Positions 784 through 17,116 of a stretch of 32,557 bases of DNA are shown one piece after another (position 1 is the first letter of the stretch; each line of letters opens with the position of its first letter). The DNA comes from Sphingobacteriales bacterium. Lineage in GTDB: Bacteria; Bacteroidota; Bacteroidia; Chitinophagales; Chitinophagaceae. A model generated the notes under the pieces. It did not search any database, had not been told where the DNA came from, and saw only the letters and a list, made by a program, of their open reading frames with translations. The stretch lies in NCBI GenBank assembly GCA_900299255.1, contig OMJB01000027.1:1-32557 (forward strand), in the 5' to 3' direction. A program made the position numbers and the translations under genes.

Positions 784-1332
784 TTACTTGTTCCAAGCTG
801 ATGGGTCACTACCATCTGGCAGGTAATATCCAAAGTCATTAGGAACATTGGTAGCAGTGTCAATAACTTCGTACCTCATTGAAATTGAACCATACTGCCC
901 GTAAGTGCTGTTGGAAGAAATATAACCCTGCCCAAATACAACATAGCCTTCCAGCTGCTGGTTGGGGATATAAATTGTGTCGGCAATTACGTAGGCTTTG
1001 ATGGGACTCTGGAAGTAATTGTAAAAATTCTTTATGATTACATCCGTGATTTTGTTTACCTTTTCAATACTTACCGGATACTGAGCCGCATTAGTAATAG
1101 ACCCTTTTTCATAAACTGCCCATGCCCCAATAAACTTGTCACGAGAAACTGTTTCACAATTAGAACCTTCGTAACCCGACGGGCAGGTGCAAATACCTCT
1201 ATCGCACACTCCATTATGGGCACAAACTATTGTCTTACACTTATCCGGATTGCATGAAACATAAGTAAAAGAAAGCGCAACAGACAAAGTACCCAATGCA
1301 GTAACCAGAATTTTTTTCAAAGACATCTTCAT
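784..1332 (-). CDS. Lipoprotein with one EGF-like domain
   Basis: Predicted outer-membrane or periplasmic lipoprotein of unknown function, 182 residues. It begins with a signal peptide ending in a lipobox at YVSC (Cys27), followed at once by a six-cysteine EGF-like module: Cys32, 37, 43, 48, 50 and 59, with the GYEGSNC signature near its end. The remaining 120 residues look like a small beta-rich domain with no family I recognise. EGF-like lipoproteins of this layout are common in Chitinophagaceae (family knowledge), but no ligand is implied. The start may be the first ATG or the ATG two codons later (1326); both keep the signal peptide. The gene is monocistronic by appearance: a 165-bp gap separates it from the amidase and a strong terminator follows it. 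Confidence 0.8.
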   Translation of the reverse strand: MKMSLKKILVTALGTLSVALSFTYVSCNPDKCKTIVCAHNGVCDRGICTCPSGYEGSNCETVSRDKFIGAWAVYEKGSITNAAQYPVSIEKVNKITDVIIKNFYNYFQSPIKAYVIADTIYIPNQQLEGYVVFGQGYISSNSTYGQYGSISMRYEVIDTATNVPNDFGYYLPDGSDPSAWNK

Positions 1333-1497: not shown

Positions 1498-2337
1498 CTA
1501 TTTTTCTACATCTGCCTTATAGCTTCTGATTCCTTTAAAAATTGCCAGTGCCACTTCAAACTGCCCTCTCTCTGAATTAAGGTAAGCCTCCTCTTCAATA
1601 TTGGTAATAAAGCCAATTTCTACGAGCACGCCCGGCATTGCACTTCCTGCAAGTACTTCCAGCGGAAGCTGTTTTACACCGAGGTCAGGCCTGTTTTGCA
1701 GAGCAAACTGCTCCTGTATCTTGCTTCCTAAAGAGACACTTTTTGCCAGAAACACTTGTGAGTATTGTGCAATAATGATAGCAGTTTGTGGGTCGTTTTC
1801 ATCCAGCAGGCCCGATTCATTAGTGACATTCTCGCTGTACTCCCCTATTGATTTCTCTTTTTGGTAGTTCCTTCTTAATGCCAGCACATAGGTTTCCACC
1901 CCGCTCCGCTTGGTTTCATGATGCTTTACCTGCCGGTAAATCGGTTGTTTAACTGTCTTATGGTGTTTCTTTACCGTCTTATACCCTTCCAGCACCCTTG
2001 TGTATGTGAATGGCGTGGAGTTAACATGCACGGCAATAAACAGGTCGGCACTTGCCTGATTGGCTATTTCATGCCTGTCTACCAATGAGGGGTAAGAATC
2101 AGTTGTGCGGGTGTAAATCACTTGCACATCCTTTATACTATCGGCGAATATCTTACCTAGTTTCAGCGATACAGCTAGTGTAATGTCTTTCTCCATTGAT
2201 ATAGCCCCTCTTGCACCTACATCTTTACCTCCGTGGCCTGCATCAATTACTATCTTGTTTATTTTTTTCCCTTTTGCTGATACCAGAGCGGGAGAAGCAA
2301 AAAGCATCAGTATGACGAGAATGATCTTTGAACGCAT
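1498..2337 (-). CDS. N-acetylmuramoyl-L-alanine amidase (Amidase_3), exported
   Basis: Zinc amidase that cuts the bond between N-acetylmuramic acid and L-alanine in peptidoglycan, probably in the periplasm during cell separation or turnover. The 279-residue protein has a signal peptide (residues 1-21, ending ALVSA) and one Amidase_3 domain from about residue 27 to the end. Zinc ligands are visible as His in IDAGHGG (about 34), Glu in MEKD (about 49) and His in AVHVNS (about 104); the catalytic Glu is in LVEIGF near residue 242. An insertion of about 60 residues rich in His and Lys follows the HVNS motif and probably covers the active site. It is divergent from lptD with 71 bp between the starts, a neighbourhood often seen in Bacteroidota. 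It also serves as an internal comparison for the degenerate amidase domain near 13.1-13.7 kb. Confidence 0.9.
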   Translation of the reverse strand: MRSKIILVILMLFASPALVSAKGKKINKIVIDAGHGGKDVGARGAISMEKDITLAVSLKLGKIFADSIKDVQVIYTRTTDSYPSLVDRHEIANQASADLFIAVHVNSTPFTYTRVLEGYKTVKKHHKTVKQPIYRQVKHHETKRSGVETYVLALRRNYQKEKSIGEYSENVTNESGLLDENDPQTAIIIAQYSQVFLAKSVSLGSKIQEQFALQNRPDLGVKQLPLEVLAGSAMPGVLVEIGFITNIEEEAYLNSERGQFEVALAIFKGIRSYKADVEK

Positions 2338-11147: not shown

Positions 11148-11648
11148 ATGAAAAGAACCCTTTTACTTGTTGCAATGTTGCTGCTGTCTGTTAAATTTTT
11201 CGGGCAGCAGTTGCCTGCTGTACTGATCAAAGATGCAACAACAGGAAGGAAGGTGGCTTTTAATGAAATTGTTGGTAAGGGTAAAGTGACCCTTGTTACC
11301 TTTTGGGGTACCTGGTGTGCCCATGGAAAAAAGGAGGTCAGAACAATAGCATCAAAGCTGCTCGACTGGCAAAAACAAGCTGATTTTAATTTTATAGCTA
11401 TTGCAGCACATGAGCAGCAGTCAGAAAGATTTGTGCGCATTTATGCAGATCAGCAGGGATGGAAGTTTCCGTGCTATACAGATGTAAATGCTGATCTGGG
11501 CAATACTTTTGATCTCAGGGCATTGCCGCTAACGTTGATAATTGACCAGAATGGCAAGGTTATATTTAGCCATACCGGGTATGATAATGGCAAGGAAATA
11601 GTCAGTGCATTGATGCGGATTTGCGGGCACTCGAATGTAAAAAGGTAG
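11148..11648 (+). CDS. Exported TlpA/thioredoxin-like protein lacking the second active-site Cys
   Basis: Periplasmic thioredoxin-fold protein of 166 residues with signal peptide (residues 1-19). TlpA/ResA-type proteins reduce disulfides, often in cytochrome c maturation. The fold is clear: TLVTFWGTWC at 48-57, and the cis-proline loop ALPLTLIIDQNGKVI at about 125-139 (Pro126). The active site that should read WCxPC is WCAHG here: Cys57 is kept while the resolving Cys is Gly60 and the Pro is His. A classical dithiol cycle is therefore not possible. The protein may work as a monothiol enzyme, bind a ligand such as haem or metal, or have lost catalysis. Cys108 and a Cys near the C-terminus could pair with Cys57. 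It lies just upstream of, and co-oriented with, blaI. Confidence 0.8.
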   Translation: MKRTLLLVAMLLLSVKFFGQQLPAVLIKDATTGRKVAFNEIVGKGKVTLVTFWGTWCAHGKKEVRTIASKLLDWQKQADFNFIAIAAHEQQSERFVRIYADQQGWKFPCYTDVNADLGNTFDLRALPLTLIIDQNGKVIFSHTGYDNGKEIVSALMRICGHSNVKR

Positions 11649-11708: not shown

Positions 11709-11740
11709 TTTGGTGAACTATAAATATAGTTTTAGCTTTG
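11709..11740 (+). promoter_or_regulatory. blaI promoter (-33 TTTG, -7 TAGCTTTG)
   Basis: TTTG at 11709-11712 and TAGCTTTG at 11733-11740 are separated by 20 nt, a good match to the Bacteroidota promoter layout. The ATG of blaI is 20 nt past the -7 box. Both palindromic operators overlap or abut this promoter. Confidence 0.7.
11716..11731. promoter_or_regulatory. BlaI operator 1
   Basis: AACTATAAATATAGTT: 7-base arms AACTATA/TATAGTT around a 2-base centre. It fills the spacer between -33 and -7 of the blaI promoter, the ideal place to block RNA polymerase. Confidence 0.7.
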
Positions 11741-11756
11741 AACTATAATTATAGTT
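11741..11756. promoter_or_regulatory. BlaI operator 2
   Basis: AACTATAATTATAGTT is a perfect 16-bp palindrome with the same arms as operator 1, 25 bp centre to centre from it. It starts right after the -7 box, so it covers the transcription start and the leader, ending 4 nt before the blaI ATG. Confidence 0.75.
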
Positions 11757-11760
11757 TTAG

Positions 11761-12120
11761 ATGAAATCGTTGACAAGGGCAGAAGAACAGGTAATGAAAG
11801 TTTTATGGCAGCTGGAGAGCGGCCTACTAATGGGGGTGGTGGATAATATGCCACAGCCGCAGCCACATAAAAATACAGTAGCAACAATACTAAAGACGCT
11901 GGTAGAAAAAGAATTTGTAAGGATTGAGCAGTTGGGCAGGATACACAGGTATCACCCACTGGTTAGCAAAGAAGATTATTCGAGTTCATCACTCACTAAT
12001 GTGGTGAAGGGATACTTTGAAGGCTCGTTCAGTAATGTTGTATCATTTATGGTAGATGAGAAAAAGCTGTCTGTTGAAGACCTGGAACTACTTTTAAAAC
12101 AATTAAAGAAAACCAAATAA
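11761..12120 (+). CDS. BlaI/MecI/CopY-family repressor
   Basis: Winged-helix transcriptional repressor of 119 residues. BlaI/MecI proteins bind palindromes as dimers and are released when the partner M56 membrane protease triggers their cleavage. The N-terminal winged helix covers about residues 1-75 (TRAEEQVMKVLWQLE, then the recognition-helix segment NTVATILKTLVEKEFV and wing LGRIHRYHPLV). The C-terminal dimerisation helices follow (FMVDEKKLSVEDLELLLKQL). Two palindromes with identical arms surround its promoter, so it almost certainly represses itself and the M56 gene, which starts 10 bp after its stop. No beta-lactamase gene is present in the window, so the regulated response is probably not beta-lactam resistance. 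Confidence 0.9.
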   Translation: MKSLTRAEEQVMKVLWQLESGLLMGVVDNMPQPQPHKNTVATILKTLVEKEFVRIEQLGRIHRYHPLVSKEDYSSSSLTNVVKGYFEGSFSNVVSFMVDEKKLSVEDLELLLKQLKKTK

Positions 12121-12130
12121 AACTGTAGAT

Positions 12131-13761
12131 ATGGAAACCCTGGGCTTATTTATTCTGAAGAGCATTGTAGTCAGTGGACTGCTCACCTTATGGTATTTTG
12201 CGGCCCTGCGAGGCAGAAAGCTGCATCATTATAACAGATTCTTTCTGCTAACGATACTTTTTGCCAGCCTCGCCATTCCATTGCTTCATTTTAATTTGTT
12301 CAGTATCCCCCGCCCTGCCGCCATTCAACTCTCGGCTGTATCGGTTTCGGGCGAGGCAACTGATGAACATACTTATAACAACATAGTATCTACCGATACG
12401 CCGTCATCAGGTTTTGATTGGCCTCAGAAAGCAGGAATCGGAGTTGCTGCTGTTAGCCTGTTTTTGCTGTCTGTTTTATTGGTTAGAATAGTGAAACTCA
12501 ACAGGCTATTTGCAAAATACCCTGTAACCAGAATGGGCAGGATAAAGCTCATCAATACAGACCTTCAGGCAGCACCGTTCACGTTTTTAAATAACCTATT
12601 CTGGAACAGTACCATTCCAATGGATGATGAAATAGGCAGGCGTATACTCCGGCATGAGGAGGCCCACATAGCGGAGGGCCATACCTATGATAAACTCTTT
12701 TGTCAAATATTGTCTTGTATTTTCTGGTTCAATCCTTTTATTGGGCCATACTGAAAGAACTGGAAGTGGTTCATGAGTTTATTGCCGATGAGCAATCAGT
12801 TGACAACCGTGACACCGGCCTGTTTGCCATGATGATGCTACGAACATACAATAACGGCACCTACCCGATACCCGAACATCATTTCTTTTCCTCCAACGTA
12901 AAACGCCGTTTGAATATGCTTGAAAAATCAGCCGCACCTTCATTTTCATTATTGAGAAAGTTTATGGCGTTACCACTAATTACCGCCGCAGTAATGATGC
13001 TTTCGTTTAATATGGTTAGTTCAACAGCTGGCAGTATTACCCCTGCTAAAAAGAAAATTATACTTGCAGTAGACCCGGGCCATGGCGGTGATGATGCTGG
13101 TGCAAAATCCGGTGCATTTTTAGAAAAGGATATTTGCCTCTTATATGCAAAGAGATTGCAGGAGCTTGCATCAGGTTATAATATAGAAGTGCAGCTAACC
13201 AGAAACAATGATGAATCAGTGCCACTATCAAACAGGGTGGCATTGTGTGACAAAGTGAAAGCAGATTTATTCTTATCACTACATGTGGAAAATGAACAGG
13301 GTACTAATAAGGCTAAGGGAGATTTTGATATATTTATTTCAGGTAAAGCACCGTTTGCGGAGCGAAGTGGTAACTGTAGTAACTCAATTTTTACTGCTAT
13401 GGTTAACAGCGGCATTATCCCTGGTGAGACAGCCGGGTGCATGCACAATCCAAGCAAAGTGTGCAGTCAATGTATAGGCCTGCCTGCCAGCAATGTTGCC
13501 GTTTCAAAAAAAGAAGGTGTGTTTGTTTTGAACAATGCTCACGTTCCTGCTATGGTCATGGTGCTGGGAAATATCAAAAACACTCAGGCTATGCAGAATC
13601 TTGTTGATCACAACAAAATGGATCTGTTGTGCAATACTATATTGAAAGGTATAGTTGAAGGTGCTGAAGCTAAAACAATACCTAAAACAGGCTGTGGGCC
13701 AGTGCCACAAAGCAACGATAAGTACGTATTTGCCAGGTTAACACCCAATATGAATAACTAA
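12131..13761 (+). pseudogene. M56 (BlaR1-like) membrane metalloprotease fused to a degenerate amidase sensor domain; one frameshift
   Basis: Predicted inner-membrane signal transducer for the upstream BlaI repressor. Frame 1 (12131-12754, 207 residues) has membrane helices at about 5-26, 37-57 and 101-121, then the cytoplasmic zinc-protease motif HEEAH (175-179), and reads FWFNPFI before leaving the family. Frame 2 (about 12736-13761) continues with AILKELEVVHEFIADE, the next M56 motif with the likely third zinc ligand. It then has a fourth membrane helix (near 12960-13025) and an extracytoplasmic Amidase_3-like domain (13054-13660). One missing T near 12736-12743 restores a 543-residue protein. 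The amidase domain keeps zinc ligands in DPGHGG, LEKD and SLHVEN, but the catalytic Glu of VEIGF is Val (MVMVLGNI, codon 13561-13563). It also has a Cys-rich insertion (CMHNPSKVCSQC). Expected role: binding peptidoglycan fragments rather than cleaving them. The frameshift may be a sequencing error or real inactivation. Confidence 0.75.
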
Positions 13762-13853: not shown

Positions 13854-15308
13854 ATGAAAAAAGTATGCCTATTGCTGTTGGTAACAACAGTAGCTATCTG
13901 CGGATTTACGCAAACTAAAAAGAATGCAGGCCTATTTGCCGGAAAAGCAAGTAAGCCGAAACTGATTAACCCTGAAGGAAAGACGCCATTCCCTTATGCT
14001 CATTTTGTCAATAAAGGCTTTGAAGACAAATCAGGAATACTGTGGTTTGGTTCTTCTGAAGGCGTATACCGGTATGACGGCAATTTGTTTACACTATTTG
14101 AAGAAATGGACGGGACTGACGTTCGGTCTAAAATGAACTCGCTGACCAACATTACACAAGACAGAATGGGAAACGTTTGGTTTGGAGCGGTGGGCGCAGC
14201 TATCCGCTTCAACGGTAAAGCTTTTGAAAGTATTAAAATGCCTTCAAACAGCATAGCCGGCTATTTTGGAATTTCTGAATCCGGAAACTCAAAGCGCAAT
14301 CTTTGGGATGAAACACCTGAAGTAAAAGTCTTCCCTGATATAGCTGGCAATGTCTGGTTCTTCTCAGGTTGCAATGTTTTTCGACACAATGAGAAAACAG
14401 GGTTGGCAGAGCATACCGGGCTTGGCTACTACATGAAAAATGTAATTGCACCATACGATAGTGTGCGCAGAGATTATACGATACATACGGTTTATCAGGA
14501 CAGAATAGGCGGGCTTTGGTTTACGGCCTCTGGATGCCAGACTGCAAAAAATGAAGCCTACAGGCTGTTTGGTGGCTGGGCAGGCAATAAGTGTATTTTG
14601 AATCAATGCAATCAAGATCTTAAGCAGGCAAGTGATGTTGTGGCCCATAACAAACATATTGCGTCAAATTTCTCGAAGCTGTCACTCTGGGAAACCCATA
14701 ACACTTTTAGCTTTACTTGCTGCATGGAAGACCGTGATGGGAACATGTGGTTTGGCACAGACCGCGATGGCGTTTATCGTTATGATGTGAAAGGTGTTTC
14801 ATTAGATCCATCAACAGCGCATACACGAAATGACCACTACTTTATTACCCGGTTTACTTTGAATGACCAGCTGAGCAAGAGCTATATAGAAAAAATTCAC
14901 CAGGATCAATCCGGAAGAATATGGTTTGGTACCGGTCCTCAGAGTAATTTTCAGGGGGATGGTGTATTCTGTTACAACCCCAATTCCCCTCAGAAAAATG
15001 GTACCCCTGTTGTAAAACACTATACAACGGCTGATGGTTTATGCAGTAAAAGCCCATTTAGCAACAATGTAATTATGTCTTTTGCTGATGACAATTCCGG
15101 CAAAGTATGGTTCGGCGGAGATGGTGGGTTGAGTTATTTCGATGGGAAGAAATTCGTTAGCCTATTAAAGAAAGATGGCCTCACAGATGACCACGTTGGC
15201 TTTATAATCAAGGATAATAAAGGCAGAATTTGGCTAGGTACATGGAATCTTGGGTTGTACTCATTTGACGGAAAAACTATGAAGTGCTTCACTGAAAGCA
15301 ATTCCTAG
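13854..15308 (+). CDS. Periplasmic two-component-regulator-type beta-propeller protein (Reg_prop repeats), no kinase
   Basis: Exported protein of 484 residues with a signal peptide (residues 1-19, ending GFTQ). It contains repeated propeller blades of the Reg_prop type: DKSGILWFGSSEGVYRYDG, DRMGNVWFGAVGAAIRFNG, DRIGGLWFTASG, DRDGNMWFGTDRDGVYRYD, DQSGRIWFGTGP, NSGKVWFGGDGGLSYFDG and NKGRIWLGTWNLGLYSFDG, about seven blades in all. In hybrid two-component systems such blades form the periplasmic sensor in front of a histidine kinase. Here the protein ends after the last blade and no membrane or kinase segment follows, so it is either a free-standing secreted propeller or a binding partner for another sensor. 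It follows the M56 gene on the same strand after 92 bp, with its own palindrome and no BlaI-like operator. Confidence 0.8.
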   Translation: MKKVCLLLLVTTVAICGFTQTKKNAGLFAGKASKPKLINPEGKTPFPYAHFVNKGFEDKSGILWFGSSEGVYRYDGNLFTLFEEMDGTDVRSKMNSLTNITQDRMGNVWFGAVGAAIRFNGKAFESIKMPSNSIAGYFGISESGNSKRNLWDETPEVKVFPDIAGNVWFFSGCNVFRHNEKTGLAEHTGLGYYMKNVIAPYDSVRRDYTIHTVYQDRIGGLWFTASGCQTAKNEAYRLFGGWAGNKCILNQCNQDLKQASDVVAHNKHIASNFSKLSLWETHNTFSFTCCMEDRDGNMWFGTDRDGVYRYDVKGVSLDPSTAHTRNDHYFITRFTLNDQLSKSYIEKIHQDQSGRIWFGTGPQSNFQGDGVFCYNPNSPQKNGTPVVKHYTTADGLCSKSPFSNNVIMSFADDNSGKVWFGGDGGLSYFDGKKFVSLLKKDGLTDDHVGFIIKDNKGRIWLGTWNLGLYSFDGKTMKCFTESNS

Positions 15309-15458: not shown

Positions 15459-15860
15459 ATGAACATTTTAAAAACAACGGTAACTGCCGCTATCGTACTT
15501 GCCATTGCTTCTTGCAGCGGATTAAAGAAAAACACTTCCTCTTCTGCTGAAAAAACAGCCGGTGGCCAACCGGCAAAGAAATCGAAATCGGCTGATGGCA
15601 TTTATGCTCCCGGCAGTGATGAACTTGCTGCAGTGCAGAGCAAATATGCTGGTACTTCCATACAGACACTCACTGATGGTTACAAGCTTTATACCAGTGT
15701 TTGCACCAATTGCCATGATGCAAAGAATATCTATAGGGAGCCTGAGCAGTTATGGCCAGGTATAATTGATGCAATGGCCCAGAAAGCTTCACTAACTGCC
15801 GTGCAGAAAGATGCGGTACTCAGATATGTAATGTCTGTTAAGGCGGTGCAAAAAAAATAG
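15459..15860 (+). CDS. Small cytochrome c lipoprotein
   Basis: Exported haem protein of 133 residues, probably anchored to a membrane facing the periplasm. The signal peptide ends in a lipobox (AIASC, Cys19). A Lys/Ser/Ala-rich linker of about 35 residues follows, then one c-type haem site CTNCH (about 82-86). A Met in the IIDAMAQKA helix some 20 residues later could serve as the distal ligand, and the closing helix QKDAVLRYVMSV is typical of class I cytochromes c. The redox partner is unknown; no oxidase or dehydrogenase genes lie nearby. It ends 54 bp before the CDGSH gene. Confidence 0.8.
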   Translation: MNILKTTVTAAIVLAIASCSGLKKNTSSSAEKTAGGQPAKKSKSADGIYAPGSDELAAVQSKYAGTSIQTLTDGYKLYTSVCTNCHDAKNIYREPEQLWPGIIDAMAQKASLTAVQKDAVLRYVMSVKAVQKK

Positions 15861-16354: not shown

Positions 16355-17116
16355 ATGCTGATGAGGAAACGATTTATTTTATTCACTTTTGCATGTATCA
16401 TCACCAATCTGCTGACAAGTTGCCATACGTCAGAGCAGGCCGTTTCAGACAAATCCTCACATCAACCCAGGTTCATTAACAATGTTTATATAGAGCCGCA
16501 CAACAGGTCAAGTGCCACCACTGATGCTATTGATAATTCCAAACAGCCAGTTGCAACAAGGAATAACGGCAAATTACATAAAACACATATACGTGAAAAA
16601 TCTGCTTCAAAACCGGTAGCAAAAACCGTTTCCACAGAGCCTGCACCCGCACCGCTTACACCGGTTGTAACAACAAAAGAGCTTCCTAAAAGTGCAAAAA
16701 GGAAATACGCAGACTTGTTAGGTGTATCAGCAACTGATATCAGCAACTCGGCACTGTATAATTTTATTGATAAATGGCTAGGTACAAATTACAGGATCGG
16801 AGGTTGTGATATTCAGGGTATAGATTGTTCCGGCTTTGCTCAAAAGCTGTACAGCGAAGTGTATGGTATTGACCTGTCGCGCACAGCAAGAGACCAGTTC
16901 AGCAACTGCAAAAGGATAAAGAATGCAGCAAATGCTGTGGAAGGCGACCTCGTGTTCTTTCACATACGCAGTAAACGTATTTCTCATGTAGGTATTTACC
17001 TGGCTAATAAATACTTTGTCCACGCTTCTACCTCAAATGGAGTTATTATCAGTAATCTCAATGAAGAATACTGGAGCAAGTACTATGCCGGATGCGGCAG
17101 GATTCCCAGGGGGTAA
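16355..17116 (+). CDS. NlpC/P60-family cell-wall peptidase lipoprotein
   Basis: Predicted peptidoglycan endopeptidase that cleaves within stem peptides (typically gamma-D-Glu to diaminopimelate), anchored as a lipoprotein. The 253 residues comprise a signal peptide with lipobox LLTSC (Cys23), a low-complexity Ser/Ala/Pro linker (about 30-110), and an NlpC/P60 domain (about 135-253). The catalytic triad is visible: Cys158 in DCSGF, His211 in SHVGIYL and His223 in FVHASTS. Conserved EGDLVFF and the terminal CGRI are also present. Two starts are possible, ATG 16355 or ATG 16361, and both keep the signal peptide. It is one of two intact wall hydrolases in the window, with the amidase at 1.5-2.3 kb. 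Confidence 0.9.
   Translation: MLMRKRFILFTFACIITNLLTSCHTSEQAVSDKSSHQPRFINNVYIEPHNRSSATTDAIDNSKQPVATRNNGKLHKTHIREKSASKPVAKTVSTEPAPAPLTPVVTTKELPKSAKRKYADLLGVSATDISNSALYNFIDKWLGTNYRIGGCDIQGIDCSGFAQKLYSEVYGIDLSRTARDQFSNCKRIKNAANAVEGDLVFFHIRSKRISHVGIYLANKYFVHASTSNGVIISNLNEEYWSKYYAGCGRIPRG

Follow-up and report, generated by a model that had tools for sequence, protein, structure and literature searches.

According to our analysis, the 32,557-nucleotide stretch of DNA studied here (the window; contig 27 of a 3.47-Mb draft genome in 146 contigs) harbors a blaI repressor gene directly followed by the gene of an M56 membrane protease that ends in an Amidase_3 domain, and in proteins of this architecture the catalytic Glu of the amidase has been lost repeatedly while the zinc ligands nearly always stay. 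By analogy, the pair is predicted to operate as a BlaR1-like relay with the Amidase_3 domain in place of the penicillin sensor of BlaR1, an assignment that we deem probable and hold with moderate confidence. The window's own domain reads as a zinc-retaining pseudo-amidase, and cutting is presumably lost in most members of the branch to which it belongs; in most relatives at large, the domain may still cut its ligand.

The blaI gene (11761..12120, plus strand) encodes a BlaI/MecI-type repressor of 119 aa that matches Pfam PF03965 (Penicillinase_R) with 99.7 bits, and it lies 10 bp before the M56 ORF. This ORF (12131..12754, plus strand) encodes the N-terminal part of the M56 protein, with three hydrophobic helices and the motifs HEEAH and WFNPF, and scores 35.1 bits against PF05569 (M56; cut-off, 31), the same place reaching 29.0 bits, below the cut-off, in the genome scan. 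Its frame ends at 12754, and a second ORF in another frame (12733 to 13761, read to 13758) carries the M56 remainder with HEFIADE and one hydrophobic helix, the last membrane helix (residues 72 to 90; about 12946-13002), both within 12733..13065 on the plus strand, followed by the Amidase_3 domain. In this assembly, the partner gene of blaI (12131-13761) is split, the frame breaking at the overlap of the two ORFs, and the M56 motifs (HExxH and the downstream Glu) are present but divided between two frames. Since the genome is a 146-contig draft, the break is possibly an assembly or read error. Among the nine other members of the branch, eight have single open frames, and the ninth, L338, is represented by a fragment close to where its contig begins. 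One of the intact relatives, L289 (genome G306, same genus), spans 543 aa in a single open frame and shares 71% identity with the second piece. The succession of blaI, a 10-bp gap, M56 protease, last membrane helix, and Amidase_3 domain, as read in the initial annotation of this DNA, is borne out by the ORFs, motifs, and Pfam matches, with the qualification that the window's own gene is frame-broken in the assembly.

The Amidase_3 domain (13066..13653, plus strand; residues 112 to 307 of the second piece) matches PF01520 with 100.3 bits. His117, Glu131, and His184 of the second piece, encoded on the plus strand at 13081-13083, 13123-13125, and 13282-13284, align with the columns of the zinc ligands, and residue 277 (13561-13563, gtg) is Val at the position of the catalytic Glu; the labels zinc ligand and catalytic Glu are those of the Amidase_3 family. 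All four residues are present in the window's other amidase (1498-2337, minus strand), with the Glu in LVEIGF. The AlphaFold model has a confident core, with 96 of 243 residues at a pLDDT of 90 or more, and Foldseek returned 34 matches at an E value of 0.001 or lower, all of them amidases or phage endolysin domains, the nearest solved fold being CwlV (1jwq; E value, 1.1e-11). At the C terminus, Pfam finds Amidase_3 only, and no penicillin-binding or class D beta-lactamase-like sensor. As for topology, positive charge is higher ahead of the last membrane helix than behind it in 62 of 80 relatives, with 14 ties and 4 in reverse, and the longer members, of which L013 and L014 were scanned, have Plug and TonB_C domains behind the amidase; because TonB_C works in the periplasm, its place behind the amidase fits a periplasmic domain. 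We infer from these features that the Amidase_3 domain is periplasmic, and the charge bias around the last helix agrees with the placement first proposed for it. The zinc ligands and the exchange of Glu for Val at 13561-13563 were likewise read correctly at the outset, and the loss proved to be common to sister species.

When we searched 294 genomes of the family, most likely Chitinophagaceae, matches were found in 287, many of them confined to the M56 half or belonging to other amidases. We worked with a hand-picked set of 87 loci in 86 genomes in which the listed match covers both halves or nearly so. The fusion, together with one exception (L126, the only locus of the 87 without an amidase domain), is thereby counted in at least 86 of the 294 genomes. 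The M56 HExxH motif is intact in 84/84 readable relatives, and the zinc ligands are intact in 85 of the 86 relatives having an amidase domain. A blaI gene adjoins 79 of the 87 loci, at least three of the remainder being cut by contig ends; since it does so, and since the Amidase_3 and BlaI scores lie far above their cut-offs, we regard the arrangement as beyond chance. A sample covering 395 genomes of the phylum gave, among the matches listed, two fusions apparently from outside the family, L345 and L349, each belonging to another family of the class; they retain the Glu and are closely preceded, by eye, by a BlaI-like ORF. A scan of named genomes listed 80 loci, among which the M56 part was also matched only in L209, a Sphingobacteriia bin with Glu, and L210, labeled a Flammeovirgaceae metagenome bin and apparently likewise outside the family, with Asn replacing Glu (both by eye). 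Among plasmids, 104 records were matched, none of them over as much as 80% of the second piece. For M56 and BlaI, the window's own genome gave three matches each (among the M56 ones, that of the fusion stays below the family threshold), and Amidase_3 was matched only twice, each time inside the window.

Some neighboring variants were met along the way. In L075 (5338-6741, reverse complement), which is the same gene as L010, an M56 fusion has an amidase that stops after the second His, and the tail beyond it resembles a LytTR DNA-binding domain; given the response-regulator-like gene just upstream, this fusion may be a product of recombination or assembly. Two separate lipoprotein-like Amidase_3 relatives occur in the same genus, one right behind the fusion gene in L339 (3658-4305; by eye, Gln for the first zinc His) and one in L340 (5155-5817, minus strand; by eye, His and Glu kept). 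Within the window, the gene before blaI (11148-11648) encodes a thioredoxin-like protein with WCAHG where a WCxxC motif is expected, one active-site Cys seemingly being absent, and a short protein encoded at 784-1332 (minus strand) has EGF-like matches, PF23106 (Teneurin-like EGF) barely exceeding its cut-off.

Two exact palindromes of the form AACTA-N6-TAGTT precede blaI at 11716..11731 and, 25 bp from the first, at 11741..11756, and we consider the tandem to be putative BlaI operators. Upstream of blaI, two or more ACTA-N6-TAGT sites were found in 73 of the 81 relatives' loci whose blaI start was located by motif (no start was located in 6 of the 87), with one site in 4 and none in 4, and single-base shuffles of these upstream regions gave any palindrome in 1/81. 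Searched for the exact pattern, the window's own genome contains six sites, namely the window pair, one before a blaI-M56 pair on contig 64, and three singles, so that its only exact pair stands upstream of the window's blaI; the reversed control pattern occurs at 19 sites. A wide BlaI regulon was rejected on these counts, 6 exact sites against 19 and one pair only, for the exact pattern in this genome. In the genomes of eight relatives, a close exact pair is, among the matches listed, at the fusion operon only. At the contig 64 locus (L061, 3339-4928), the M56 part of this second blaI-M56 pair is followed by a TonB_C domain, and because a palindrome of the same type lies upstream of the pair (C64:53270), the two BlaI proteins may cross-talk. 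A role for the window's BlaI as a copper repressor was discarded, since it scores 55 bits against TIGR02698 (CopY/TcrY; cut-off, 122) and is devoid of Cys.

The fate of the catalytic Glu was followed in 97 readable fused domains, drawn from a set of 101 (which leaves out L126 and the unfused L300) after dropping L010, L018, L085, and L118, whose Glu position is unreadable; fragment L338 is outside the tree. The Glu is present in 82 and absent in 15, where it is replaced by Ile (4), Val (3), Ala (2), Gln (2), Ser (2), His (1), and Gly (1). All three zinc ligands are kept in 14 of the 15, the other being L082, with Gln at both His positions. On the tree, the Glu position changed at least 10 times, or 9 with three long rows left uncounted, and at least 8 times on a smaller tree. 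In the 83 fused domains readable before the genus-level loci were added, window included, 73 have the Glu and 10 do not, against 70/70 control amidases of the same family with His, Glu, His, and Glu (Fisher's exact test, 10/83 versus 0/70, P = 0.002, uncorrected for relatedness). The controls were selected for their resemblance to the window's other amidase, itself included (30 best matches and 40 hand-picked), and some may carry further domains. Conservation in the fused domains is 99 to 100% at the zinc ligands and 88% at the Glu; since the fused domains are more divergent than the controls (mean pairwise identity, 33% versus 47%), part of the losses may reflect a faster clock. Of the Glu-less relatives, nine belong to the set of 87, and eight of these have an adjoining blaI, L097 being without; another of the nine, L111, sits on a very long branch, and no palindrome was found for it. 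L290, L291, and L292, also Glu-less, have blaI as well, and L289 and L293 lie at contig ends. Loss of the Glu as a hallmark of the whole architecture is thus rejected (82/97 retain it), and the initial annotation, which had named Glu-keeping homologues as its own refutation, is on this point unsupported in the form given. The alignment that it called for shows that the loss is not conserved among M56 fusions overall, and yet that it is recurrent (15/97) and mostly zinc retaining (14).

The window belongs to a branch of ten members (the window, L289, L290, L291, L292, L008, the fragment L338, L007, L314, and L082), of which the nine full ones are grouped with a support of 93 inside a group of 18 with a support of 100. 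The seven members from the window's genus (the window, L289 to L292, L008, and L338) have no Glu, and the six of these with whole domains keep all the zinc ligands; L289 has the same Val as the window, and at this position either Ile or Val stands in the remaining Glu-less members of the branch. Fusions of the same genus outside the branch have Glu in 9 of 10 cases, with Ser in L293. The remaining three members come from another genus: L007 and L314 keep the Glu, and L082 has lost it together with both zinc-binding His residues, although blaI, the tandem palindromes, the M56 motifs, and the Cys/His insertion described below are retained. A single clean loss of the Glu in the branch is unsupported, as L007 and L314 lie inside it; since they are nested among Glu-less members on weak nodes, repeated loss and loss followed by regain are both compatible with the tree. 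By eye, no compensating acidic residue common to the Glu-less branch members was seen.

The branch is further distinguished by a Cys/His-rich insertion, in the window CMHNPSKVCSQC (13438..13473, plus strand), which has the form CxHx5CxxC in eight of the ten members and CxCx2C with a nearby His in L290 and L008. A motif scan had hits in 3/87 and 4/15 fused proteins, all branch members, and missed L290. The C-terminal tail likewise contains one or more Cys residues in all ten (in the window, 13693..13695, plus strand). Downstream of the window's fusion gene lie the genes of a Reg_prop propeller protein (13854..15308, plus strand; PF07494, 85.2 bits; by eye, a signal-peptide-like start) and of a small lipoprotein-like protein with a CTNCH heme-c motif (15459..15860, plus strand), whose Pfam cytochrome matches are below the cut-off only; the former is a possible coregulated output and the latter a possible output. 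A same-strand gene follows the fusion in all ten branch members, encoding a propeller in eight and a protein of 158 to 170 aa in two (L064 and L330), and a cytochrome c-like lipoprotein with CxxCH is encoded downstream in five (the window, L329, L330, L333, and L063). None of the propeller, small-protein, and cytochrome-like types was found downstream of nonbranch fusions in the fetched flanks, mostly 1.5 to 3 kb, and no beta-lactamase gene was recognized among the downstream genes examined. One small-protein homologue lies upstream in L077. Beyond the operon, the window encodes an NlpC/P60 wall-hydrolase-like protein (16355-17116; 98.9 bits), and an equally placed lipoprotein-like ORF of comparable length is found in L329 (G306).

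What the sensor binds can be approached from two sides, since the kept zinc ligands favor wall fragments, such as the muropeptides first proposed, while L082 and the heme-c lipoprotein favor metal or thiol sensing by Cys/His. In L082, zinc appears dispensable, as both zinc His residues are gone and the remainder of the system is kept, and this protein counts against binding of an amidase substrate as the sole signal in the branch. It may be that, in this branch, the insertion is itself the sensing element, as a metal site or a thiol switch, and the amidase fold a scaffold only. We regard this as unlikely. In its favor, the insertion is found in 10/10 members, including the Glu-keeping L007 and L314 and the zinc-His-less L082, and a heme-c-like lipoprotein behind five of them would suit a response to redox state or metal. 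Against it, all eight other readable members retain the zinc ligands of the amidase, the Cys/His set is rearranged in L290 and L008, the insertion has a pLDDT under 50 in the AlphaFold model, and its conserved Cys residues could form a disulfide. The role of a ligand lid, suggested for the insertion in the initial annotation, finds no support in this model, which leaves the insertion without a defined position.

The fusion could also be an autoregulated, membrane-tethered amidase whose enzyme activity is the output and whose level is all that BlaI and M56 control, Glu-less copies arising from relaxed selection, which again seems to us an unlikely reading. It draws on the Glu of the 82 fused domains, on the restriction of the close palindrome pairs listed in the eight genomes to the fusion operon, and on the next ORF lying on the opposite strand in 9 of 14 readable nonbranch regions (mechanical ORF calling); the other 5 regions, as well as L335 and L337, have a same-strand gene next, which argues against it. 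So does the recurrent loss of Glu with the zinc ligands kept, set against the invariant Glu of the 70 controls, as well as the Glu-less form of the branch, which is shared, constrained, and followed by genes unseen behind other fusions. As to the constraint, dN/dS between the window and L289 is 0.087 for the first 200 codons of M56, 0.145 for the M56 end and helix, 0.109 for the amidase domain, 0.329 for the 32-codon tail, 0.073 for the propeller gene, and 0.080 for the cytochrome-like gene, values that are rough because dS against L289 is 0.9 to 3.3, near saturation. For the amidase domain, the ratio against L331 is 0.166, and the comparisons with L330 and L332 are saturated; between L331 and L332, it is 0.088 for M56 and 0.153 for the amidase part, the latter being looser. 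Judged by these ratios, the amidase domain in the window's lineage is not free to drift. Since the Glu-less form is common to sister species and dN/dS is low, it is not the decay of one gene.

Likewise unlikely is a history in which a blaI-M56-amidase ancestor gave rise to a branch that gained the Cys/His site and the outputs, lost the Glu and, in L082, the zinc His residues too, and became an envelope metal or redox sensor rather than one of wall fragments. That the gene is a fresh pseudogene in its own genome, Val and frame break (between 12131-12754 and 12733-13761) both being decay, is quite improbable, and one-genome decay as the origin of the Val is rejected, because the same Val stands in the open 543-aa frame of L289, Ile or Val takes the place of Glu in the other Glu-less members, and dN/dS against L289 is low in both pieces.

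Returning to the BlaR1-like relay, we envisage that a periplasmic ligand would bind the amidase-derived domain and that the last membrane helix would transmit the binding to the cytoplasmic M56 protease, which would then cleave BlaI; BlaI would leave the two tandem operators, and the operon would be derepressed. In Glu-keeping members, the ligand would possibly be cut, which would end the signal, or which would make the protein an enzyme on its own account. The gene and domain order, the conserved palindromes, the protease and zinc motifs, and the constrained, shared loss of Glu are all features of the compared sequences, on which the proposed operator function, BlaI cleavage, ligand binding, and direction of the signal are modeled.

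No paper describing an M56-Amidase_3 fusion was found in the open-licence literature searched, which is weak evidence of novelty, and the main text of PMC6403190, as far as accessible, does not mention M56. The nearest domain combination is that of M23 proteins also holding an M56 peptidase, listed among combinations making up <1% of hits in the accessible part of PMC9662197; as here, a wall-hydrolase domain is joined to M56, but it is M23 and not Amidase_3, and the same part of that source describes neither a BlaI relay nor inactivation. A regulatory amidase homologue that has lost active-site residues is known from mycobacteria in CwlM (accessible parts of PMC4946905 and PMC6180346), which, according to these, is cytoplasmic, acts on MurA after phosphorylation, and is devoid of zinc-coordinating residues, whereas here the zinc ligands are kept and the domain is fused to a protease. 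In Bacillus licheniformis, a wall-derived dipeptide binds BlaI/MecI (accessible part of PMC3305447), so that peptidoglycan turnover feeds a BlaI system, as it would here were the ligand a wall fragment, but there the fragment binds the cytoplasmic repressor and not a periplasmic domain.

The closest likeness is to the BlaR1/MecR1-BlaI/MecI systems (MEROPS M56), where, as here, the repressor gene directly precedes that of a membrane-bound M56 protease; the C-terminal domain of the protease lies outside the cytoplasm, as is predicted for the window's fusion. The BlaR1 sensor has a beta-lactamase-like fold with slow turnover (accessible part of PMC7593790), and the window's fusion would share with BlaR1 an enzyme-derived sensor that turns over little or not at all. 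The position held in BlaR1/MecR1 by the penicillin-binding sensor is occupied here by Amidase_3, and the palindromes here are of the form AACTA-N6-TAGTT. The comparison points to wall or envelope sensing, independent of beta-lactams, as a role of the BlaI/M56 pairs of this group, and a pseudo-amidase with its metal site kept may illustrate the conversion of an enzyme into a sensor. BlaR1/MecR1 is the textbook case of an enzyme fold turned sensor but presents the end state only, whereas the present family holds Glu-keeping, Glu-less, and zinc-less versions together with conserved palindromes, so that both the route from enzyme to receptor and the signal become testable.
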